Assembly (NCBI GenBank): GCA_026393675.1
Contig: JAPKZQ010000046.1
Coordinates: 62,001 to 126,000 of the forward strand
Source of the DNA: Acidobacteriota bacterium
Lineage (GTDB): Bacteria; Acidobacteriota; Vicinamibacteria; Vicinamibacterales; JAKQTR01
DNA: 64,000 nucleotides
Reading direction: 5' to 3'
This document shows positions 2,400 through 14,141 of this stretch, piece after piece. The stretch's first letter is position 1. Each line of letters opens with the position of its first letter. Made by a program: the position numbers and the translations under genes. A model generated the notes under the pieces. It was not told where the DNA came from. It made no database searches and saw only the letters and a program-made list of their open reading frames with translations.

Positions 2400-2469
2400 A
2401 TATGTGACGTTAGCCTGCTTGGCATTCCTGGCGAAGACTGGCATCATGAACGCACGCGAGCCGAACTGA

Positions 2470-2712
2470 ATGCCGAAGATCACCAACATCCCGGGCCCGT
2501 ACTGGTTGTTCTTCTACAGCTTCGACTGTAGCGAGCCCATGCACGTGCACGTTCGGCGGGAGAAGAAGACCTGCAAGTTCTGGCTCGCTCCGGTAGAACT
2601 GGCGTGGAATCATGGATTTGCGCCACGGGAACTGAACGACATCCGGGTCCTGATTCAGGAACACGGACAGAACATCATCGAGGCTTGGTATGAGCACTGC
2701 GGTCAGCGTTGA
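2470..2712 (+). CDS. DUF4160 family protein
   Basis: An 80-residue protein, MPKITNIPGPYWLFFYSFD..., with the DUF4160 hallmarks: an N-terminal Y/F-rich strand, the EPMHVHVRREKKTCKFWL histidine/basic segment, and a C-terminal ELNDIRVLIQEH helix. DUF4160 genes are usually followed by a DUF2442 gene, and the pair has been treated as a toxin-antitoxin-like module. The biochemical activity is unknown. The stop overlaps the start of the DUF2442 gene by 23 bp, implying translational coupling. It is the first gene of the integron cassette, 54 bp after its GTTAGCC boundary. Confidence 0.85.
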   Translation: MPKITNIPGPYWLFFYSFDCSEPMHVHVRREKKTCKFWLAPVELAWNHGFAPRELNDIRVLIQEHGQNIIEAWYEHCGQR

Positions 2713-3061
2713 ATCGAGAGTCAGCCGGGTCGAAGTGACCGGCGAAGTCATCACGGCCTACCTGGTGGACGGACGCGTCATCAGCGTTCCGCTTGCTTGG
2801 TCCTGGCGCCTATCCGAGGCGAATCCGGCACAGCGGGCGAATTGGACGCTTATTGGCGATGGTCAGGGAGTGCACTGGCCAGACGTAGACGAGGATCTGA
2901 GTGCCGAGGGCATGCTGCACGGCATTCCCGCTCACCGGCCAGGTACACGCGCCGCAAGTCCTGGTGCGACAACGCCGGCTAACAAGGCGGTGCAGCCGAC
3001 GAGCCGCGCGCGGCAGAGGGCCAACAAGTCGCGACCGGCATCACACGCGGCTCGCGGCTGA
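2690..3061 (+). CDS. DUF2442 family protein with an attC-encoded tail
   Basis: Residues 1 to about 85 match DUF2442: a strand pair VTGEVITAYLVDGRVISVPLAW followed by RANWTLIGDGQGVHWPDVD and EDLSAEGMLHGIP. Family members are 80-100 residues; this one reads on for about 35 residues of low-complexity, Ala/Arg/Ser-rich sequence. That tail is simply the translation of the cassette's attC, and its TGA (3059-3061) falls in the 3' arm of the attC stem. It is coupled to the DUF4160 gene upstream, and the pair may act as a stabilising toxin-antitoxin-like unit, as often found in integron cassettes. Role unproven. Confidence 0.83.
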   Translation: MSTAVSVESRVSRVEVTGEVITAYLVDGRVISVPLAWSWRLSEANPAQRANWTLIGDGQGVHWPDVDEDLSAEGMLHGIPAHRPGTRAASPGATTPANKAVQPTSRARQRANKSRPASHAARG

Positions 3062-3077
3062 CCCCCGGACGTTGGCG
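2977..3077 (+). other. attC recombination site (101 bp)
   Basis: The order of elements is R'' GGCTAAC (2977-2983), L'' arm CAGCCGACGAGCCGCG (2993-3008), a loop of 37 bp, L' arm CGCGGCTCGCGGCTG (3046-3060) and R' GTTGGCG (3071-3077). The two arms pair perfectly over 15 bp except for one unpaired A (2999) in the left arm. Such an extrahelical base in L'' is the strand-discriminating feature of integron attC sites. The R' box departs from GTTRRRY at its sixth position. Confidence 0.82.
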
Positions 3078-3113
3078 GGCAACCGACGACCGGTATTTCA
3101 GGTTCGGGTCAGA

Positions 3114-3476
3114 CTACCGATGCGCGCGCCGCTTGGACCAGTTCTCGACGGCGATCTCTCTGAAGCGAGCGAAGTCCCTGGTGTTCAGGGTGACCAATAC
3201 CAGTTGGTTGACATGGGCGATCGCGGCGATCTGGCCATCGACGAACGGCGCAGTCCGGCCGAGTGCCTCGAGACGTGCTCGCTCATGGCCGTGCCACGTC
3301 GCCGCAAACTCGTCATACGGAAGAATTGGAAACGATATCTGTATGACGTCGTGGAGATAGGTTTCGAGAGCAACTCGGCGCTTGCCTCTTGGCAGCCGAC
3401 GGCAGCCGTACGTGAGCTCGTGCCAGACCGGCGCCGCTCTCCGAACGACCGTTGCCGTACTTCGGAATCGGGGCAC
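3114..3476 (-). pseudogene. Truncated VapC-type PIN-domain toxin
   Basis: The frame encodes the last ~110 residues of a VapC family PIN nuclease: VWHELTYGCRRLPRGKRR, FPILPYDEFAATWHGHERARLEA, GRTAPFVDGQIAAIA and VTLNTRDFARF. PIN toxins cleave RNA using four acidic residues held by Mg2+. The N-terminal strand with the first catalytic Asp (normally within an LLDTN motif) is absent. The only usable start is a GTG that overlaps the stop of the upstream gene, where homology to VapC has already ended. No VapB antitoxin gene is beside it. It is most likely an inactive remnant. Confidence 0.72.
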
Positions 3477-3869: not shown

Positions 3870-5594
3870 ATGCTTACACGCTCATCCACCCGCCCGCGTC
3901 TGGTTCCGGCGCTGGTCCTGACGGCGCTTGTCGGCAGCCTCGTATCCTTCGGCGCACAAACCTTCCCTCCAGGCTATGACGTCATCATTGCTGGGGGACG
4001 CGTCGTCGATGGCACCGGCGCGCCGTGGTTCATGGCCGACGTGGCCATCAACGGCGATCGCATCGCGGCCGTCGGCGACCTGCGGGACCGATCCGCCAAA
4101 ACGCGCGTCGATGCGACGGGGCTGGTGGTGGCGCCCGGCTTCATCGACATGCTCGGCCAGTCAGAGTTCAACATCCTGGTGGACGGCCGTGCGGCGTCGA
4201 AGATCATGCAGGGGGTGACGACGGAGATTACCGGCGAGGGGACGGCGATTGCGCCTGTCAACGATCGGATGCTCCAGGCCGCGAAGGCCACCTGGGACCA
4301 CTTCAAGGTCGCGCAAGACTTCCACACGCTGGCGGAGTACTTCACGCGTATCGAGACCCGGTCGAAAGCCGCGATCAACGTGGGCACCTTCGTCGGCGTC
4401 GGCGGGGTGCGCGACTATGTGATTGGCCGCGAGAACACACCGGCGACTCCAGCCGCGATGGAACAGATGAAGGCGCTGGTCGCGCAGGCGATGCGCGAGG
4501 GCGCGCTGGGCCTGAGTTCGTCGCTCCAGTACGTGCCGGATCGGTTCGCGACCACCGATGAGATTGTCGAACTGGCCAGGGTCGCGCGCCAGTACGGCGG
4601 CGTCTATCTGACGCATCAGCGTTCGGAAGCGGGCCAGATCTTCGAGTCGATGGACGAGGCCTTCGCGGTGGCGGAGCGGGCCCAGATCCCCACCGAGATC
4701 TGGCACCTGAAGACCGCCTACAAGGCGAACTGGGGCAAGATGCCCGAGGTGTTGCGCCGCATCGAAGCCGCCCGCGCACGCGGGCTCGACGTCACCGCGA
4801 ATCAGTATCCCTACACGCGTGCGTCAAACGATCTGGCGTCGTGCCTGCCCCTGTGGGTGCGCGAAGGGACGGTCGACGCGATGGTGGCGCGGCTCAAGGA
4901 CCTGTCGCTGCGCGATCGCATCAAGAAGGAGATGGATGACCCGTCGGTGACGGCCTGGGAAAACCAGTGGTTCGGGTCGGGCGGTGGCGACGGCGTCATG
5001 GTGTCGTCGGTGCTGAACAAGGACCTGCGCAAGTACGAGGGGATGACGCTGACGCAAATCGGCAAGGTGATGGGCAAGGACCCGCGCGACGCCCTGATGG
5101 ACCTGGTAATAGCCGATCATGGCGAGACGGCGTGCATCATCGCGATTATGACCGAGGAGGACGTGCGGACCGCCCTCAAACACCCGCTGGTCTCCATCGA
5201 CACCGACTCCGGCGCCAAGGCCGAAGACGGCCCGCTCGCGGAATCGAAATCGCATCCGCGCGCCTGGGGCACCTTCGCCCGCATTCTTGGCAAATACGTG
5301 CGCGACGAGAAGCTCCTCACGCTCGAAGAAGCCGTCCGCAAGATGACGTCACGCGCGGCCAGCCGCGTCGGCCTGCAGGATCGCGGCGTGCTGCGACCGG
5401 GCCTGGCGGCCGACATCACGGTGTTCGATCCCGCCACGATTCGCGATATCTCGACGTTCGAGGATCCGACGCATTACTCGGTCGGCGTGAAGTACGTGTT
5501 CGTCAACGGCCGGGCGGTCGTCGCCAACGGAACGATCACCGACGAGCGCCCGGGTCGGCCGCTTCGCGGTCCCGGCTACCGCCCGACAAAGTGA
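3870..5594 (+). CDS. Exported amidohydrolase of the N-acyl-D-amino-acid deacylase type, lacking the HxH motif
   Basis: The 574-residue protein starts at ATG 3870 with a hydrophobic signal peptide (about residues 1-30). It continues with the amidohydrolase opening DVIIAGGRVVDGTGAPWF. Later it has EIWHLKTAYKANWG, a long central alpha/beta barrel, and the closing PGLAADITVFDPATI and FVNGRAVV typical of D-aminoacylase and dihydroorotase relatives. The metal-binding HxH that normally follows PGFID is replaced by PGFIDMLGQSEFN, so the metal centre must differ or be incomplete. Relatives remove acyl groups from N-acyl-D-amino acids; substrate here is unknown. The upstream gene is divergent. Confidence 0.8.
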   Translation: MLTRSSTRPRLVPALVLTALVGSLVSFGAQTFPPGYDVIIAGGRVVDGTGAPWFMADVAINGDRIAAVGDLRDRSAKTRVDATGLVVAPGFIDMLGQSEFNILVDGRAASKIMQGVTTEITGEGTAIAPVNDRMLQAAKATWDHFKVAQDFHTLAEYFTRIETRSKAAINVGTFVGVGGVRDYVIGRENTPATPAAMEQMKALVAQAMREGALGLSSSLQYVPDRFATTDEIVELARVARQYGGVYLTHQRSEAGQIFESMDEAFAVAERAQIPTEIWHLKTAYKANWGKMPEVLRRIEAARARGLDVTANQYPYTRASNDLASCLPLWVREGTVDAMVARLKDLSLRDRIKKEMDDPSVTAWENQWFGSGGGDGVMVSSVLNKDLRKYEGMTLTQIGKVMGKDPRDALMDLVIADHGETACIIAIMTEEDVRTALKHPLVSIDTDSGAKAEDGPLAESKSHPRAWGTFARILGKYVRDEKLLTLEEAVRKMTSRAASRVGLQDRGVLRPGLAADITVFDPATIRDISTFEDPTHYSVGVKYVFVNGRAVVANGTITDERPGRPLRGPGYRPTK

Positions 5595-5600
5595 AAAGGT

Positions 5601-7148
5601 CTATCGCTCGTAGGATTCGCGGCGGCTGGCCTCGGTCAGCCTGATCACGTAGCGCAACGGATCGCGGCGGAAGCGTGTCTTGAACTCGGCCAGGCTCGCC
5701 GCGCCGCCGTAGCTGACGGCCGACGCCAGGTGCTTCATCATGTCGCCGAGCACCGGGCGGACCGATCCGCGCGCCGGCACGCTCACCTCGATCCCTTCGG
5801 CGCCGAGCGCTTCGAGATCGACCTCATCGTCGTCTTCGACATCGAGCCGGTCCTTAATGGCCTGGATCGACGCCATCCCGCGCAACACCTTGAACGGAAC
5901 CTTCACGACTTTCTGTGATTCGGGCAGCAGCACCGACTTCTGCACCACGTCGCCGGGCGTTTCGATCGTGCCAGCGAACGCGCTTCCCAGCATCACCGTA
6001 TCGCCGCCGAAGAGCAGCGCTTCGACAATCGCGCCGTCCCGGCGAATACCGCCATCAGCGATAATGGGAATATCGTCGGCGATGGCTGCCCGGCACTCGA
6101 CGAGCGCCTGCAACTGCGGCACACCGAACGAGGTGGTCAGTCGCGTGCTGCACCCGCCGCCGGGACCGATGCCCACCTTGATTCCGTCGACGCCGAGATC
6201 GGCCAGCGCACGCGCGCCGTCGGCGGTCGCGACGTTGCCGGCCACGACTTCGAAATCGCCGAAGCGCTGCCGGAACGCCTTCATCGCCTTCCGCATCACG
6301 AGGGAATGACCGTGTGCGATGTCGATCACCAGCACATCAACGCCGGCCTTGATGAGCTCCGCCGCGCGCTCCAGGTAGTCGCCCTTGGCCCCGATCGCGG
6401 CCCCGACCAGCAGCCGGCCGTTTTCGTCCCGGGACGCGAACGGCAGGCGCTTCTGGTGCAGGAGGTCTCTGGCCGTGATGAGGCCGACGAGCACGCCCGC
6501 GCGGTCGACCAGCGGCAGCTTCTTCACCTTGCGCTCGATCATCAGGCGTTCGGCCGCGACCATCGAGAGCCGGCCCACGTGCACGATCAGGCGCTCGCGC
6601 GGCGTCATGCGGTCCGCGACGGTCAGTCGTGCGGCATCGGCCCGGCCGTCGACGAACCGGACGTCGCGCTGCGTCAGCAAACCCAGCAGGTGCCGTCCGC
6701 CGTCGACGACCACCAGTGTGCCCACGCCACGCCGCTCCATCACGGCGAGGGCCGCACTGAGCGAGTCGTCCGGGCCGGTGGTCCACGGGTCGGCAATCAC
6801 GAGATGCTGCGTCCGCTTGACCAGTTGCACCTCGCGGACCTGCGGCTCGATGTCTCCCGGCCTGAAGCCCCGGTCGATCACACCCAGGCCGCCTTCTTCC
6901 GCCAGCACCATCGCCATCGGCGCCCGCGTCACCGTGTCCATGTTGGCCGACACGATGGGCCGCCGCAGCGTGATGTGCCGCGAGAAACGGCACGACAGAT
7001 CGATCCCCGCGGGATCCCGGCGTTCGAGCACGCTGTAGTGCGGCGTCAGGAGAAAGTCGTCGAAGGTGCACCCGGCGACCAGGGTCCTGAGCTTCCGCCA
7101 TGCGCCCGCCGTCCGACTGTCCGCCGACCGCCGCTGTTGCCTGGCCAT
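5601..7148 (-). CDS. guaB: IMP dehydrogenase / GMP reductase family protein with CBS pair
   Basis: This TIM-barrel protein (515 aa) opens with TFDDFLLTPHYSVL and PIVSANMDTVT, as in IMP dehydrogenases. Two CBS domains (about residues 115-235) are inserted in the barrel. It then shows VLVIDIAHGHS, VVAGNVATADGARALADLG and the nucleotide-binding IIADGGIRRDG. The catalytic loop reads GIGPGGGCSTRLTTSFGVPQ with Cys333, whereas the classic form is GPGSxCTTR. The flap is short and ends in SYGGA. It most likely oxidises IMP to XMP in GMP synthesis, but GuaB1-type GMP reductase activity is possible. Its start faces speA across 75 bp. Confidence 0.8.
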   Translation of the reverse strand: MARQQRRSADSRTAGAWRKLRTLVAGCTFDDFLLTPHYSVLERRDPAGIDLSCRFSRHITLRRPIVSANMDTVTRAPMAMVLAEEGGLGVIDRGFRPGDIEPQVREVQLVKRTQHLVIADPWTTGPDDSLSAALAVMERRGVGTLVVVDGGRHLLGLLTQRDVRFVDGRADAARLTVADRMTPRERLIVHVGRLSMVAAERLMIERKVKKLPLVDRAGVLVGLITARDLLHQKRLPFASRDENGRLLVGAAIGAKGDYLERAAELIKAGVDVLVIDIAHGHSLVMRKAMKAFRQRFGDFEVVAGNVATADGARALADLGVDGIKVGIGPGGGCSTRLTTSFGVPQLQALVECRAAIADDIPIIADGGIRRDGAIVEALLFGGDTVMLGSAFAGTIETPGDVVQKSVLLPESQKVVKVPFKVLRGMASIQAIKDRLDVEDDDEVDLEALGAEGIEVSVPARGSVRPVLGDMMKHLASAVSYGGAASLAEFKTRFRRDPLRYVIRLTEASRRESYER

Positions 7149-7223: not shown

Positions 7224-9170
7224 GTGAGCATCCCAGCTAGCCGCCTCAACCGATCCTGGCGCTTCGGGGACCCCTGGAGCATCGCCGACGCCACTGAATT
7301 GTACGAGATTGGCCGCTGGGGCCAGGGATACTTTTCGATCGGCGACGATGGCCACGTGCACGTGCATCCGGCCAAGGATCCGCAGAACTCCATCGATCTC
7401 AAGAGCCTCACCGATGACCTGATGCTCCGCGGCATCGACCTGCCCATCCTGATCCGGTTTACCGACATCCTCAAGCACCGGCTGCAGGACATCCACGATG
7501 CCTTCCAGGCGGCCATTGCGCAGCATGGCTACCAGGGCCGGTATGCCTTTGTCTATCCGGTCAAGGTCAACCAGCAGCGACGCGTGGTCGAGGAACTCGT
7601 GAAGTACGGCCGGCCGTTTGGATTCGGCCTGGAGGCCGGGTCGAAACCCGAACTGCTCGCGGTGGCGGCGCTGGCCTCCAACGATATCCCGATCATCTGT
7701 AACGGTTTCAAGGACGCCGAGTTCATCGAGATGGCCATGCTGGCCCAGAAGATCGGGCGCACGATCATCCCTGTCATCGAAAAATACAGCGAACTCGGGA
7801 TGGTGCTCGAGTACGCCGCCAAGGTCGGCGTGCGGCCCAACATCGGCATGCGCGTCAAGCTCGCGTCCCGCGGCAGCGGCAAGTGGCAGTCGTCGGGCGG
7901 CTACCGCTCGAAATTTGGACTGACGGTTGGGGAAATCCTCAAGGGCCTCGAGGAACTGCGCGGCCTCGGCATGCAGGACTGCCTGAAGCTGCTCCACTTC
8001 CACCTCGGCAGCCAGATTCCGAACATCCGGATCGTCAAGGCGGCACTCAACGAGGCGGCGCGCGTCTATGTCGAGTTGGCCAAGAACGGAGCGGGGCTCG
8101 AGTACCTGGACATCGGCGGCGGCCTGGGCGTCGACTACGACGGGTCGCGCACCAACTTCGAATCGAGCGTCAACTATACGATCGAGGAGTACGCGGCCGA
8201 CGTCGTGTATCACGTCCAGACGGTGTGCGACGATGCCGGCGTGAAGCACCCGACCATTGTGTCGGAGAGCGGGCGGGCCATCGCGGCGTATCACAGCGTA
8301 CTGGTGTTCAACGTGCTGGGCGTCACCGGATTCCGCGAGCAGGAGATCCCGCCGGTCGGGCCGAACGAGGAGCTGGAGCAGCCCATCATCGATCTGCGGG
8401 AGACGTTGCAGAACGTCTCGGTCCGGAACGTGCTCGAAAGCTACAACGACGCCCAGCAGGCGCTCGAGATGGCGCTGAATCTGTTTACCGGCGGGTATCT
8501 GCCGCTCGAACAGCGCAGCCATGCCGAATCGCTCTACTGGGCCATCTGTTCGAAGATTCAGCGACTCGTTCAGCAGATGGACGAGGTGCCAGAGGATCTG
8601 CAGGGCCTGGACGAGCAGCTCGCGGACACGTACTTCTGTAACTTCTCGCTCTTCCAGTCGATGCCGGACAGCTGGGCCATCAAGCAGTTGTTCCCGGTGA
8701 TGCCGATTCACATGTTGGAGAAGCCGCCGACCAGCCACGCCGTGATTGGCGATATCACCTGCGACTCGGATGGCAAGATCGATCAGTTTATCGATCGGCG
8801 CGACGTCAAGCGCACGCTTCCGCTCCACGTCGTCAACGGCGAGCCGTACTTCCTGGCCGTGTTTCTGATTGGCGCCTACCAGGAAATCCTCGGCGACATG
8901 CACAACCTCTTCGGGGACACGCACACGGTCCACGTGACGCAGGATGAGCAGGGTGGCGTGGTACTCGACTCGCTCATCAAGGGCGACACCGTCCGCGAGG
9001 TGCTGCAGTACGTGAACTACAACCCCGACAGTCTGGTCAGCAAGCTGCGGTCGGATACTGAAACAGCCGTGCGCGAGGGCAAGCTCTCCTTCGAAGAGTC
9101 TGGACGGCTGCTGAAGTTCTACGAAGAAGGCCTGCAGGGATACACGTACCTCGAGGATCCCAAGGGGTAG
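7224..9170 (+). CDS. speA: Biosynthetic arginine decarboxylase
   Basis: SpeA decarboxylates L-arginine to agmatine, the first step of the agmatine route to putrescine and spermidine. The 648-residue length equals the bacterial biosynthetic enzyme. It begins with WSIADATELYEIGRWGQGYF and has the PLP lysine in YAFVYPVKVNQQ. It also has HFHLGSQIPNIRIVK and the glycine-rich PLP-phosphate site YLDIGGGLGVDYDG. Near the C-terminus, NYNPDSLVSKLR is also typical. Translation starts at GTG 7224, since no in-frame ATG upstream fits; the ATG at 7215 is out of frame. It is divergent from the guaB-like gene. Confidence 0.95.
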   Translation: MSIPASRLNRSWRFGDPWSIADATELYEIGRWGQGYFSIGDDGHVHVHPAKDPQNSIDLKSLTDDLMLRGIDLPILIRFTDILKHRLQDIHDAFQAAIAQHGYQGRYAFVYPVKVNQQRRVVEELVKYGRPFGFGLEAGSKPELLAVAALASNDIPIICNGFKDAEFIEMAMLAQKIGRTIIPVIEKYSELGMVLEYAAKVGVRPNIGMRVKLASRGSGKWQSSGGYRSKFGLTVGEILKGLEELRGLGMQDCLKLLHFHLGSQIPNIRIVKAALNEAARVYVELAKNGAGLEYLDIGGGLGVDYDGSRTNFESSVNYTIEEYAADVVYHVQTVCDDAGVKHPTIVSESGRAIAAYHSVLVFNVLGVTGFREQEIPPVGPNEELEQPIIDLRETLQNVSVRNVLESYNDAQQALEMALNLFTGGYLPLEQRSHAESLYWAICSKIQRLVQQMDEVPEDLQGLDEQLADTYFCNFSLFQSMPDSWAIKQLFPVMPIHMLEKPPTSHAVIGDITCDSDGKIDQFIDRRDVKRTLPLHVVNGEPYFLAVFLIGAYQEILGDMHNLFGDTHTVHVTQDEQGGVVLDSLIKGDTVREVLQYVNYNPDSLVSKLRSDTETAVREGKLSFEESGRLLKFYEEGLQGYTYLEDPKG

Positions 9171-9256: not shown

Positions 9257-11116
9257 CTATCCCGCTCCATCGAGCCCCACCCAATCGTAGGTCTGTTCTT
9301 GCCCGATCAGCTTCCACCGCGATGGGTACACCGCGCGCTGCCAGTCGAGCGGCTCGGCGAGCGGATGCGGCGCGGCCGCGAGCGCAAAGGCGGCTTTGAG
9401 ATCGCGCCGTTGGTCCGCCCCAAGCGCGTCCGGCGCGAGCGACACAAACAGCATCGTCCCGCTTCGCGACAGGAGATCAAGCCATTGCCGGTTGAACGAC
9501 CACGGCACCGCCGTCGTGACGCCGACGCAATCAGCATCGGCCACATAGAACGCGCCGTGCTGCGGACCGCGAAAGGCCAGCGTGTTCACGCCCATCTTTC
9601 GCGTGCGCGGCCAGTCGGTGCCGCTCGTGTCGTCGCCGACGCGGCAGATGTCGAAATGTCCGGCGGACAAATGGCTGACGGTGTTGCAGCCGATGATCAG
9701 GCTCTCGCCAGATGCCGCGCGAATCGTGCGATATAACTCGTTGATAACTTCAGCGGTCGTTCGCGAGGCGCCTGCCGCGAACGTCCATCCATCGTTCGTG
9801 AGCGCCGATCCCATTTGATAGCCCCACCGCCCGAACAGATCGAACGTGGTGTAGTCGTGCTTGATCAGCTCGAAGCCCCATTGACGCAGGCGCGCACAAT
9901 CGGCGGAGATTTTGTCGCGCGCCTCCGGCACCGTCGGATCCAAGAACGCCCGCGCACGCGGCAGCCGCCACGCATCAGGTGTGTTCGCGGTGGCCTGGAG
10001 CGGTCGAATCCAGATTCCCGGCCGCGCGCCGGCGCGCTTCACCTCCGCAGCGAGCGCCGGCATGTCCGGAAACTTCTCGTTGCCGCGATCCCACATTCCC
10101 ACGTCGGCTTTGTCTCTGCCGCGCACCGGCTGCCATCCATCGTCGATCACAACGAACGGACGATTGGTCGTTGATGGTGAGAGTTCGACGATGTGCTGGG
10201 CGTCGGAGAGGACGGTGGCGGCGCTGTTCTTGCCGTAGGCCCAGTACCAATCGTTGCTGCCGTACACGGGTTGCGTGGGCAGCCGCGGGTTCGCGCACAT
10301 CTGGCGGCAGAACGCGTGTATCGCGGCGAACGCCGATTCGCCCGGATGGCCGGCTCGCGAGCACACGTCGCAGACGTCGAGGACGCGATCGCCCAACTGC
10401 ACGCCCACGCCGCCGCTCCGCACATCGGCGATGAGACTGATGCCATGCGCGTCAACTTGCCAAAAACACAACGCCCGCGGTCCCGTGCGCACGCCGTGCG
10501 CGTGTGTCACTGAACCCGTGTCGATCGCGACGTACCAGGGCATCACGCGATCCGGCACGATGCCGCGCCACTCGAGGTCGCCGTAGCCGCGTTCCCAGGC
10601 GTCGGCGAGGATCCGGCTGGCATCGCTGACACGGCCGCGCCAACGCAAATGCAAACGCTTGATTGCCGTGGATGGCGCCGACAGCTGAATACGAAGTGCG
10701 CCCGGCACGTCGACGGCCGTGACGGTGACGCCGTCACTGCTCCACCGTCCGGCGGATTGAAGCGCGAGGCGAACGTCGCCATTCGCTGTCAACGCCATCA
10801 CGGCGTCGGGCGGGCGATGAAGAGTGAGGAATCCAGATGGTGATGCGGCGGGTGTTCGTGCCTGACCGGAGGCTGACGCGATCTGGGGAGACAGCGACGC
10901 GCCAACGGCTGCGAGCGCGGCTTGTTCGAGGAAATCGCGGCGAGACGTGGTCACTGATGGTTGCGCCGAGCCGTTCGGCGAGAGAAGCGCAGCAAGAGCC
11001 TGCGGCTTTGCGCGAATACTCTCCGACAACGGCTCCCCGCACTTTGCGCACCACGAATACGAGGAAGAAGCATCGATCGACGCACCGCACTTCGGGCACT
11101 TCGCGATTTCGGTCAT
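9257..11116 (-). CDS. Alpha-galactosidase-like glycoside hydrolase (GH27/GH36 clan) with zinc ribbon and Tat signal
   Basis: The catalytic part has the clan GH-D layout: RPFVVIDDGWQP, GARPGIWIRPL, ELIKHDYTTFDLFGRWG (probable nucleophile Asp), LIIGCNTVSHLSAG and RVGDDTSGTDW (probable acid/base Asp). Such enzymes remove alpha-galactosyl or related residues from glycans, here outside the cytoplasm. A twin-arginine signal TSRRDFLEQAALAAVGASLS lies near residues 57-76. From the ATG at 11116 the protein first encodes a two-CxxC zinc ribbon (CPKCGASID ... CAKCGEPL). A GTG at 10952-10954 would instead start at MTTSRRDFLEQ, a normal Tat leader. The gene lies directly after the attC of the DJ-1 cassette. 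Confidence 0.78.
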   Translation of the reverse strand: MTEIAKCPKCGASIDASSSYSWCAKCGEPLSESIRAKPQALAALLSPNGSAQPSVTTSRRDFLEQAALAAVGASLSPQIASASGQARTPAASPSGFLTLHRPPDAVMALTANGDVRLALQSAGRWSSDGVTVTAVDVPGALRIQLSAPSTAIKRLHLRWRGRVSDASRILADAWERGYGDLEWRGIVPDRVMPWYVAIDTGSVTHAHGVRTGPRALCFWQVDAHGISLIADVRSGGVGVQLGDRVLDVCDVCSRAGHPGESAFAAIHAFCRQMCANPRLPTQPVYGSNDWYWAYGKNSAATVLSDAQHIVELSPSTTNRPFVVIDDGWQPVRGRDKADVGMWDRGNEKFPDMPALAAEVKRAGARPGIWIRPLQATANTPDAWRLPRARAFLDPTVPEARDKISADCARLRQWGFELIKHDYTTFDLFGRWGYQMGSALTNDGWTFAAGASRTTAEVINELYRTIRAASGESLIIGCNTVSHLSAGHFDICRVGDDTSGTDWPRTRKMGVNTLAFRGPQHGAFYVADADCVGVTTAVPWSFNRQWLDLLSRSGTMLFVSLAPDALGADQRRDLKAAFALAAAPHPLAEPLDWQRAVYPSRWKLIGQEQTYDWVGLDGAG

Positions 11117-11152: not shown

Positions 11153-11220
11153 GGCCAACGTTCGCGCTGAGCCGCGGCGCATCACGACTTACGCGCCGTC
11201 GGCTCCAGTTGATGTTAGCC
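11153..11220 (-). other. attC recombination site (68 bp)
   Basis: On the minus strand the order is R'' GGCTAAC (11220-11214), L'' GAGCCGACGGCGC (11205-11193), a short loop, L' GCGCCGCGGCTC (11180-11169) and R' GTTGGCC (11159-11153). The arms pair over 12 bp with one unpaired A in L'' (T at 11199 on the plus strand). That is the same position within GCCGAC as in the attC at 2977-3077. This size and shape are textbook for integron attC sites. Confidence 0.85.
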
Positions 11221-11805
11221 AGTTCCCGGTAGACGCGCACTCCGAAAGATGGTGGCCCAGGCTGCCCGATCCTCGGCACTGAGGACGCTCAGTTCCTCGA
11301 GGAGTTCACGCGCGAATTCGACGTCGCCCAATCCGCTGGCTGTGATAAGCCCGCGATCTCGCACAGCCGGAACGTCCAGATAGTTCGCCGCCTCGGCGTA
11401 GCCAGGGACGTGTGAACGAAGATACTCAAGGCCGTTGCTGGTGTGCCGGCGTCCTCTCAAGAGGCCCATCCGAGAGATCGCCACGGTGGCCGCGCAGATC
11501 GCTGCGAGCGGAACTTGTTGCGCATCCAGACGCGTCACCAACTGTGCGATCTCCGGTTCGACAGGCGAGTTCTCCCACCGGTCGCCGCCGGGAAGGATGA
11601 ACACCGCAACATCCGCAGGGTCGACCTCGGTCACGGTTGTCGACGGCAGCACACGGATGCCACCCATAGACCGGACAGGAGCCAGCGTCAGGCCGACCGA
11701 CTCTACCCGATACTGGCCGTGACGCCGAAGTTCCGCCACAGCGTGGGCCGGCTCCCAGTCGGCGAACCCTTCGACAACGAGCAAGTAGACGGCTCTCTCA
11801 GGCAT
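11215..11805 (-). CDS. DJ-1/PfpI family protein
   Basis: The 196-residue protein has the class I amidotransferase-like fold of DJ-1/PfpI. It starts AVYLLVVEGFADWEPAHAVAEL, with the family's acidic residue near the start. It has FILPGGDRWE and the nucleophile elbow PLAAICAATVAI (Cys at about residue 104), followed by RHTSNGLEYL. Members include glyoxalase-like, protease-like and regulatory proteins, so the activity cannot be specified. It is carried alone in an integron cassette; its TAA overlaps the attC. Cassette-borne DJ-1 genes could serve in detoxification of reactive carbonyls, but that is only inference. Confidence 0.87.
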   Translation of the reverse strand: MPERAVYLLVVEGFADWEPAHAVAELRRHGQYRVESVGLTLAPVRSMGGIRVLPSTTVTEVDPADVAVFILPGGDRWENSPVEPEIAQLVTRLDAQQVPLAAICAATVAISRMGLLRGRRHTSNGLEYLRSHVPGYAEAANYLDVPAVRDRGLITASGLGDVEFARELLEELSVLSAEDRAAWATIFRSARLPGTG

Positions 11806-11837
11806 ATGGCTGATCGAATCTCGTCGCTTCTGGATCT

Positions 11838-11856
11838 GGCTAACTTGTTATTCCAC
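11838..11856 (-). other. Cassette insertion point, possible attI end
   Basis: On the minus strand the bases before the cassette's GTTAGCC read GGAATAACAA, similar to the AAAACAAA that precedes GTTAGGC in the class 1 attI site. No attC-like palindrome lies upstream, so this junction is either the remains of attI or a secondary insertion site. The match is short and cannot distinguish the two. Confidence 0.35.
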
Positions 11857-12171
11857 CGCGTAGCCACGTGCGCGGACTCCGTCAGGTATGCACCGGACGA
11901 GTGGCACGGTCACCCAACCTCGAAGTCTCACAACGCGTGCATCTTAGCACTACCGGACGTACCCCTGACGCCGACCCATACCCTGCGAACGGGCCGGCAT
12001 GGTTACCTGCGATGACGGCAGACATGACGGCGGCAGAGAAACGCTGGCTTGGCGGGGAACCTCCATTGCCCGAGCTACCTGCGGGCCCCGAACGCCGAAG
12101 ACCAGGAGCCGCATACCTGCGAGATCGGCGTGGTATGTCGTCGGCTACCTCCGGGCCTCGCGTGACGGGCG
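11857..12171. other. Non-coding spacer between cassette and integrase remnant
   Basis: These 315 bp lie between the opening of the DJ-1 cassette and the integrase stop codon. I find no family-like frame on either strand, no second attC palindrome, and no clear promoter. The position is where the attI of a reversed integron would be expected. The length is also compatible with an ORF-less cassette that has lost its site. Confidence 0.5.
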
Positions 12172-12909
12172 CTACAGGCGATCCGCCGGACTTCGAACAG
12201 CCATCGCCCCTCGGCTGAGGACGTGGGTGTAGATCATCGTCGTACTCACGTCGGCGTGGCCCAGCAGTTCCTGAACAGTCCGGATGTCGTAGCCGTCCTC
12301 CAGCAAGTGCGTCGCAAACGAATGTCGAAGCGTGTGGCAACTCGCTCGCTTCGTGAGCTGAGCCCGCCGCACGGCCTCCGTCACCGCCCGCTGAACGGCG
12401 GAATCATGGAGATGGAAACGGGTCGGAGGCCCCCACCGCGGATCGCGACAAAGCCGCCCCGCCGGAAACACGAACTGCCAGGCCCAGGCAGTCGACGCGG
12501 ACGGGTACTTCCGACCGAGCGCCCCGGGGAGGACGACGCGGCCAGAGCCTTCGATCAGATCAGCCTCATGCAGTCGCTTGACGTCTGCCAGGTGGGTGGC
12601 CAGCCGGTCCCGAACCAGCATGGGCAACGGTGTGACCCGATCCTTCTGCCCCTTGCCCCGCCGGATCACAATTTGGTGCCGTTCAACGTCGACGTCCTTG
12701 ACCCGCAGTTCCAGGCACTCGCGCAGTCTCAGTCCACTCCCGTAAAGCAACGCCCCGATGATCCACATCGTTCCCCGCAGCTCCGCAAGCAACCCGCGCA
12801 CCTCGGCCCGGCTGAGAACGACCGGCAGCCGCACCGGTGTCCGCGCACGCACGACGGAGTCGACGGGGCCGAGTGGGACACCGAGAACATCACGGTACAG
12901 GAATAGCAA
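12172..12909 (-). pseudogene. intI: Integron integrase IntI, N-terminally truncated
   Basis: The frame encodes about 245 residues of an integron integrase. It has the catalytic Arg in [15 protein letters not shown], the Lys in [38 protein letters not shown] and the nucleophile Tyr in [11 protein letters not shown], so all tyrosine-recombinase active-site residues remain. The IntI-specific insert, absent from XerC/D, is seen as [20 protein letters not shown] and [15 protein letters not shown]. IntI proteins are about 320-340 aa. Homology begins at [10 protein letters not shown], so roughly the first 85 residues (DNA-binding SAM-like domain) are missing. The only start is a TTG, 27 bp from the mqnC stop. 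Confidence 0.9.
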
Positions 12910-12935: not shown

Positions 12936-14141
12936 CTACTGCGCTCGTCTCTCCCGTTCCGCGCGGCTGCGGGCAGGATAGTTGACGAGTTCGGCAGGAA
13001 CTGAATTGTCGCCATCAGCCCGCGACACGGCCAGCTCCAGCATGCGTGGCACCTGACGTTCGCGGAAGATGGGCCCGCCGAGAATCTCGTAGTGCATGTT
13101 GCGGCGCTTCGCCTCGAACCCGGCATCCTCGATGTTGCGCACGATCTCGATCTCGTCCATGCAATACGCCGCGCCGGCGGCACGGACCACGTTCTCCTCG
13201 ATCATCACGCTGCCCATATCGTTGGCTCCGTAGGTCAGACTCAACTGCCCCACTTTGCCGCCCTGGGTCACCCACGACGCCTGGAGACTCGGGAAGTTGT
13301 CGAGGAACAACCGCGCGGTCGCGAGCGTCCGCAGATACTCGACGCCGGTCGCCTCGACGCCCTGCAGTTCCGTGTGCTCGGGCTGATAGCTCCATGCGAT
13401 AAACGCAGTGAAGCCGCCGGTCTCGTCCTGCAACGCGCGCAGCCGACTCATGTGCTCGATGCGCTCAGCCGGCGTCTCCACAGACCCATACATCATCGTC
13501 GCCGTCGTCTTCAGACCCGCGCGATGCGCGTGGCGCATCACGTCAATCCACTCGTCGGCCGACGCCTTGCTGTCGCAGTGAAGGAGTATTCTGACGCGAT
13601 CGACGAGAATCTCGGCGCCGCCGCCTGGAATACTGTCGAGGCCGGCCGCGACGAGGCGGCGCACCACATCCGGCACGCTAATCTGAGCGAGCCGCGAGAT
13701 GTGCAGCACCTCGGGCGGCGACAGCGCGTGCAGGCGGAAGGTGGGATACCGCGACTTCACCTCCCGAAACAAATCCTCGTACCACTCGATCGGCAGGTCG
13801 GGGTTGTGTCCGCCCTGCAGCAGCAGTTGGCCGCCGCCAAGTGCGATGGTTTCGTCGATCTTCCTGACGATTTCGTCGAAGCCAAGGACGTAGCCCTCCG
13901 GCGAGCCGACGGGACGGTAGAAGGCGCAGAACGAGCAGCGCGCGACGCAGACGTTCGTGTAGTTGACGTTGCGATCGATGATGTAGGTGACGGTGCGATC
14001 GGGATGCCGTCTCTGTCGCACCTCGTTGGCGAGCTGCCCGAGCAGATGCGTGGGCGCGGAGAGGTACATCTCGAGCGCTTCAGCCTCAGTCAGCCGCCCG
14101 CCCGCCCGCACCGTGTCTGCCAACGCGTTGATGGACATCAA
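12936..14141 (-). CDS. mqnC: Cyclic dehypoxanthinyl futalosine synthase
   Basis: MqnC is the radical SAM enzyme that cyclises dehypoxanthine futalosine in the futalosine route to menaquinone. The 401-residue protein has the cluster motif [10 protein letters not shown] (Cys65, Cys69, Cys72) right after [11 protein letters not shown]. It also has [56 protein letters not shown] and [17 protein letters not shown], all characteristic. It lies 9 bp after mqnA and ends a cluster with mqnA, an MqnE-like gene and a UbiD-type decarboxylase. The truncated integrase follows it after 26 bp. Confidence 0.93.

Follow-up and report, generated by a model that had tools for sequence, protein, structure and literature searches.

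A DJ-1/PfpI gene cassette in the probable remnant of an inverted chromosomal integron of an Acidobacteriota bacterium

The DJ-1/PfpI gene found in the window (the whole stretch of 64,000 nucleotides that was analysed) is very probably the only cassette in what is left of an inverted chromosomal integron, in a bacterium whose closest named relatives belong to Acidobacteriota; we put the probability of this reading at about 0.93. On the minus strand, mqnC is followed by a truncated integron integrase gene, an interval of 328 bp, the attI core, a cassette of 685 bp, and a melibiase-like gene, in this order. The original prediction that the DJ-1/PfpI gene is carried as an integron cassette is borne out by the attC score, the exact boundaries, and the non-vertical distribution of the gene. 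The cassette adds one more example to a well-known kind of element, and the additional value lies in a pair of attI sites and in a decay series of attCs. What is known about integrons is drawn mostly from proteobacterial resistance cassettes. In the present case, a gene for a stress-type enzyme seems to move between two soil phyla as a cassette; two platform copies in one genome act as a natural experiment that locates, to the base, the attI crossover of an inverted, Acidobacteriota-type integron; and the DJ-1 relatives form a series that leads from the mobile cassette to the ordinary chromosomal gene through attC decay.

Boundaries of the cassette, attC and attI

The integrated cassette occupies positions 11159..11843 on the minus strand (685 bp); it starts with TTAGCC and ends with ...CGAACG. 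It had been placed at 11153-11844: the cassette itself stands, while its extent is corrected to 11159-11843. It contains a single ORF (11805-11215), which terminates inside the attC. The attC (11153..11220, minus strand; 68 bp), delineated by a covariance model and by folding of both strands, encloses the stop codon and consists of four boxes on the same strand: R'' (GGCTAAC, 11220-11214), L'' (GAGCCG-A-CGGCGC, 11205-11193), L' (GCGCCGCGGCTC, 11180-11169), which pairs with L'', and R' (GTTGGCC, 11159-11153). The L'' and L' arms form 12 pairs with one extrahelical A (11199), and the TAA stop of the DJ-1 ORF (11217-11215) sits within R''. At the 5' boundary, GTTAGCC (11844-11838) is the exact reverse complement of R'' (11220-11214) and fits the G/TTRRRY rule (the slash marks the crossover) in being complementary to the cassette's own R''. 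The 5' TTAGCC pairs with this R'' and not with R'; the imperfect match between R' and R'' is as expected, because the last six bases of R' come from the next stretch. The letters on which the original prediction relied (both heptamers, the 68-bp attC, its 12-bp arms, the extrahelical A, and the stop codon inside) were thereby confirmed base for base. A circular form of the cassette would be expected to have the junction ...CGAACG/TTAGCCAGATCC.

Home-made pattern scans for attCs were sensitive and unspecific, giving weaker matches in shuffled windows, and they were replaced by a covariance model (R1) trained on 16 integron attCs from other genomes of the order, with the window excluded. With the filters off, 52.7 bits were obtained for 11153-11220 (E 5.1e-11, the E-values of this home-built model being rough). 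The next matches in the window were at 24.8 bits (the attC of a second cassette, described below), 18.5 bits (the opposite strand of 11153-11220), and 14.1 bits. As positive controls, class 1 attCs on an integron plasmid gave 33.7, 32.3, and 25.6 bits with the same model, and those of a Gemmatirosa replicon array gave up to 46 bits. Over some 218 kb of loci chosen as negative controls, no match exceeded 22.9 bits, except in one locus (L119) that has an attC pair of its own. The covariance search, which had been proposed as a check, thus placed the site far above the threshold and yielded no refutation. The proposed folding check was carried out on both strands and was less decisive: the fold energies of the attC strands are modestly better than those of shuffled sequences (z −1.9 and −2.5), which is a moderate advantage. 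In an Rfam scan, nothing reached the gathering score.

The attI core, AATAACAAG, lies at 11844..11852 on the minus strand, with G 11844 and T 11843 on either side of the crossover; the site, AATAACAAG/TT, is located 328 bp past the intI stop. The flank that leads from the intI stop to attI (11853..12171, minus strand) has a homologue with 76% identity at positions 5483-5857 of C46, on the same contig and 68 kb off; the match covers about 376 bp. The homology of this second platform spans the region from the last eight codons of intI to the attI core. When the two platforms are compared without gaps, 82 of the 100 positions before the predicted crossover are identical, and 22 of the 100 positions after the shared TTAGCC. 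The second platform has a different first cassette after attI, in an array with six attCs. The junction following the integrase, which had been described as possibly attI-like, is therefore upheld: the second platform matches it as far as the crossover, after which another cassette stands. Judged from this comparison, the two platforms are an alternate occupancy of homologous attI sites in one genome, by which the crossover is fixed. The empty attI would be expected to read AATAACAAG/TTGGCCAACAG; in the sister species G001, the empty site was not found as a simple join, speA and mqnC being on different contigs with the synteny broken at both edges. The platform flank was sought in 60 relatives and was found in no other one. 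In relatives with the same gene order, GTTAG follows intI at a comparable distance.

Within the flank, TGCTAAGAT (11949-11941, minus strand) is conserved and is a candidate for the extended −10 element of the cassette promoter Pc. In four of the relatives with the same gene order (L044, L045, L047, and L048), TGyTAAsAT takes the corresponding position, about 100 bp ahead of attI. Because a sigma-70 scan of the platform found no site, Pc in the intI-attI interval is put forward as a candidate, and the cassette gene would probably be transcribed from such a Pc-like promoter. Both platforms also carry two copies of the repeat TACCTGCGA...CGGC with a spacing of 110 bp (12004-12019 and 12114-12129 in the window; 5664-5682 and 5774-5792 in L088), and similar repeats, GGTTACCTGCG, follow intI in L039. 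The TACCTGCGA...CGGC repeats are possibly accessory integrase sites or regulator sites.

The truncated integrase and its surroundings

The integron integrase gene (12172..12909, minus strand) is truncated at its 5' end: 245 residues remain, and about 75 N-terminal residues are gone. It matches TIGR02249 with 336.5 bits (cut-off 265) at profile positions 71-315 only. In the alignment with IntI1 and relatives, the homology begins at LLFLYR, about 15-30 nt past the mqnC stop, with no in-frame replacement of the N-terminus. The catalytic residues R, K, HxxR, H, and Y are retained, and the region of the IntI-specific additional motif, which ends with WQFVFP, is present. From the structure of tyrosine recombinases, an integrase lacking its N-terminal part should not work. 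The integrase of the platform is truncated, and therefore cassette movement would need an integrase supplied in trans. No full-length integrase is encoded at the platform, and intI of the second inverted platform (C46) is also 5'-deleted. An intact intI open frame exists on contig C16, with a close orthologue in G001 (G001:C36), and its attI-like site is on the divergent side. In the source genome, the integrase is thus lost at both of the inverted platforms found and kept at one place elsewhere.

A course of events can be proposed from these structures. The boundaries suggest that an integron integrase, acting on the folded attC, brought the DJ-1 cassette into attI as a circle. A later rearrangement would have cut intI from its 5' end, as seen in the truncation, and placed it beside mqnC. 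The cassette would now be mobile only in trans, possibly via the C16 integrase, whose frame is intact and whose activity is presumed. The remnant may instead be a dead relic, in which the cassette is immobile and the DJ-1 gene is turning into an ordinary chromosomal gene. The truncation of its own integrase speaks for this, as does the attC decay in related copies, such as those of G102, where one attC is eroded and one deleted. The attC of the present cassette is, however, well preserved (52.7 bits, with all boxes intact), and an intact integrase gene is available on C16; we regard the dead relic as somewhat less likely than not.

The intI gene and the cassette are co-directional, which is the arrangement of an inverted integron. 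The original prediction omitted the truncation of intI, the inverted orientation, and the second cassette at 2410-3071. In Treponema (T. denticola type), the integrons are likewise inverted, with intI transcribed toward attI and attI located 3' of intI (PMC3607928), and the "inverted IntIs" form a subclade of the soil/freshwater IntIs (PMC8352920). The direction of intI toward the cassettes is shared with these inverted chromosomal integrons; the differences are that only a single cassette is present here, that intI is 5'-deleted, and that a separate intI (C16) with a divergent-side attI-like site exists. Inverted integrons are common in this taxonomic order: the arrangement was also found in seven genomes (G005, G018, G019, G033, G038, G056, and G057) and in the Gemmatirosa replicon, and attCs on the divergent side were found in G001:C36 and G050. 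Orientation type was tried as a marker of IntI clades and rejected: in a tree of 22 sequences, the inverted and divergent types were not cleanly separated and few forks were supported. In L014 and L046, the inverted repeat CCTGTCTAGTACTGACAGG lies 3' of intI, between intI and a MerR-like reading frame (the conserved integron of the genus); this repeat could be an operator.

Integrons have been recorded in Acidobacteriota and Gemmatimonadota (PMC8618304), and the attCs of Acidobacteria are numerous enough for taxon-level modelling (PMC8352920). Compared with the attCs of Acidobacteriota integrons, the present one is of a 68-bp form with GAGCCG/CGGCTC arms. With the class 1 system (IntI1), it shares the boxes R''-L''-L'-R', the one extrahelical base, and the G/TT crossover, and the integrase is 49% identical to IntI1; in contrast, the intI orientation, the chromosomal setting, and the non-resistance cargo differ.

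The gene mqnC (12936-14141, minus strand; TIGR03699, 482.8 bits) is native to the genome, being 89% identical to that of G001. Other genes, including menaquinone-pathway-like ones (named by eye from the translations), come after mqnC in G001 and G008. The collinearity with G001 stops at speA (position 9170 of the window) and restarts at mqnC (12952), these being on separate contigs in G001. Since the synteny is broken at both edges, the segment is a remnant at a rearrangement point. The same break could be read differently: the cassette would be real, and the joining of mqnC to the truncated intI would be a chimera of the metagenome assembly, with the true integron complete elsewhere. Besides the synteny breaks at both segment edges, the fragmentation of the source genome, with integron arrays at contig ends, is in favour of this. 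The source genome (G000) is, however, 98.6% complete in 46 contigs, and mqnC is native to it; the segment lies inside a 188-kb contig with no misleading repeat at the mqnC-intI junction, the synteny with G001 is also broken elsewhere (position 5605 of the window), and the second inverted platform also has a 5'-deleted intI, so that the intI loss looks biological. We consider such a chimera unlikely.

Downstream of the cassette, the window contains a melibiase-like glycoside hydrolase gene with an N-terminal zinc ribbon (9257..11116, minus strand), which scores 25.3 bits with PF02065, just under the cut-off. Relatives were found in 3 of 60 genomes; the one with 67% identity (G053) aligns from residue 53 only, without the zinc ribbon. 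The contig of this relative carries attCs (3093-3165 and 2366-2449 of L119). The covariance model detected no attC in the window after the stop of the melibiase-like gene that would make it a second cassette, and a search with the zinc-ribbon N-terminus gave weak matches only, apparently generic zinc ribbons. The gene may have arisen by fusion with the beginning of a former second cassette.

A second, solitary cassette was found at 2410..3071 on the plus strand, with the 5' boundary GTTAGCC at 2409-2415 and an attC at 2977-3077. It carries a DUF4160 ORF (2470-2712; PF13711, 64 bits) and a DUF2442 ORF (2690-3061; PF10387, 68 bits) on the same strand. Its attC scores 24.8-27.6 bits and is 77% identical to an attC in the C2 array of the genome. 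The truncated intI lies on the other strand, at a distance of about 9 kb from this cassette, and the DUF2442 frame continues through the attC. Genome-wide, about 38 attC matches were obtained, with arrays at contig ends (C46:1-5000, C10, C2, C37, and C41; L088-L093). The C37 array includes a reverse transcriptase-like ORF (3125-4165 of L091), which is perhaps a group II intron.

The DJ-1/PfpI gene and its relatives

The ORF of the cassette (11215..11805, minus strand) encodes a DJ-1/PfpI family protein of 196 residues, in which Glu (ADWE), Cys (AAIC), and His (HTSN) are conserved; it scores 98.7 bits with PF01965 (cut-off 26.6). The Cys and Glu are invariant in the clade members covering these positions (alignment with 26 relatives). 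The nearest solved structures are PDB 3efe, 2fex, and 3f5d, with about 98 bits to 3efe and 2fex. The ADWE, AAIC, and HTSN motifs are common to these YdeA-kind proteins, while the cassette clade is separate from them (support 99/99). Against the named NCBIfam subfamilies, the protein scores far below their cut-offs. The product is predicted to be a small cysteine-dependent DJ-1/PfpI enzyme, and a guess from the family is that it detoxifies reactive electrophiles or has another stress function. The dN/dS values relative to the closest clade members (about 0.10-0.14) show that the gene is under purifying selection. It was fairly, if weakly, stated in the original prediction that DJ-1-type genes are not among the usual cassette functions, since most chromosomal cassettes carry unusual genes. 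In the literature searched on Acidobacteriota integrons, no cassette with a DJ-1 gene was found, and of the papers yielded by a full-text search on integron cassettes and PfpI, none apparently deals with one.

The clade consists of 10 members, the window gene and nine others with 66-83% identity; the identity to relatives outside the clade is at most about 42%. The members are scattered over Acidobacteriota (several families of the order, as well as gp1-labelled MAGs), and two MAGs binned as Gemmatimonadetes also have the gene; no close relatives were found in viral contigs. Family-level matches exist in 6 of the 162 genomes of the order and, at a stricter limit, in 5 of the 396 genomes of the phylum. 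Conservation by vertical descent had been named as a possible refutation, and the gene is instead sporadic; its distribution, as these counts indicate, is not that of vertical descent.

Several of the relatives retain traces of cassettes. The copy of a Gemmatimonadetes MAG (L120) has attCs before and after it (31.7 and 37.5 bits). In G007, a 41.1-bit attC ends 10 bp upstream of the gene; 50 kb away there is an integron whose intI is broken, with further attCs. In L122 and L123, short attC-like matches of 20.9 and 18.1 bits extend from the stop codon on. G102 has two copies (L143 on C167 and L145 on C10) with the same downstream gene; the attC is eroded at L143 (12 bits) and deleted at the other copy. 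An R''-like heptamer is found at the stop codon in 6 of the 10 clade members as compared with 70 of 2063 ORFs generally, the independence of the former being lowered by shared descent. That the window gene is a native chromosomal gene with a chance 3' hairpin, such as a terminator, beside an unrelated recombinase agrees with the presence of a single cassette without an adjoining intact integrase and with the fact that simple attC-like patterns arise in shuffled DNA, but it is extremely improbable given the 52.7-bit attC, the exact complementarity of the 5' boundary, and the sporadic distribution, and the alternate occupancy of homologous attI sites together with the attC-flanked relatives already refutes it.

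With the gene taken as a cassette, the relatives suggest that lineages keeping the gene tend to lose the attC, by which the gene would be fixed in the chromosome. We consider it fairly probable that integron cassettes are the main form in which this DJ-1/PfpI subfamily exists, that it is passed between Acidobacteriota and Gemmatimonadota, and that it becomes fixed on attC decay. The window would then hold a copy that is still at attI and has its attC intact, and the relatives would represent the stages of loss: attCs on both sides, an attC on one side, a short or mutated attC, R'' only, and none. Fragments of the gene occur in the sister species G001 as well: L017 (G001:C40) contains three pieces of it, at 818-881, 2111-2182, and 5424-5484. 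Two of them start at one and the same internal base (GTGACGCG), each immediately after a different attC and at the place where the R' of that attC should be.
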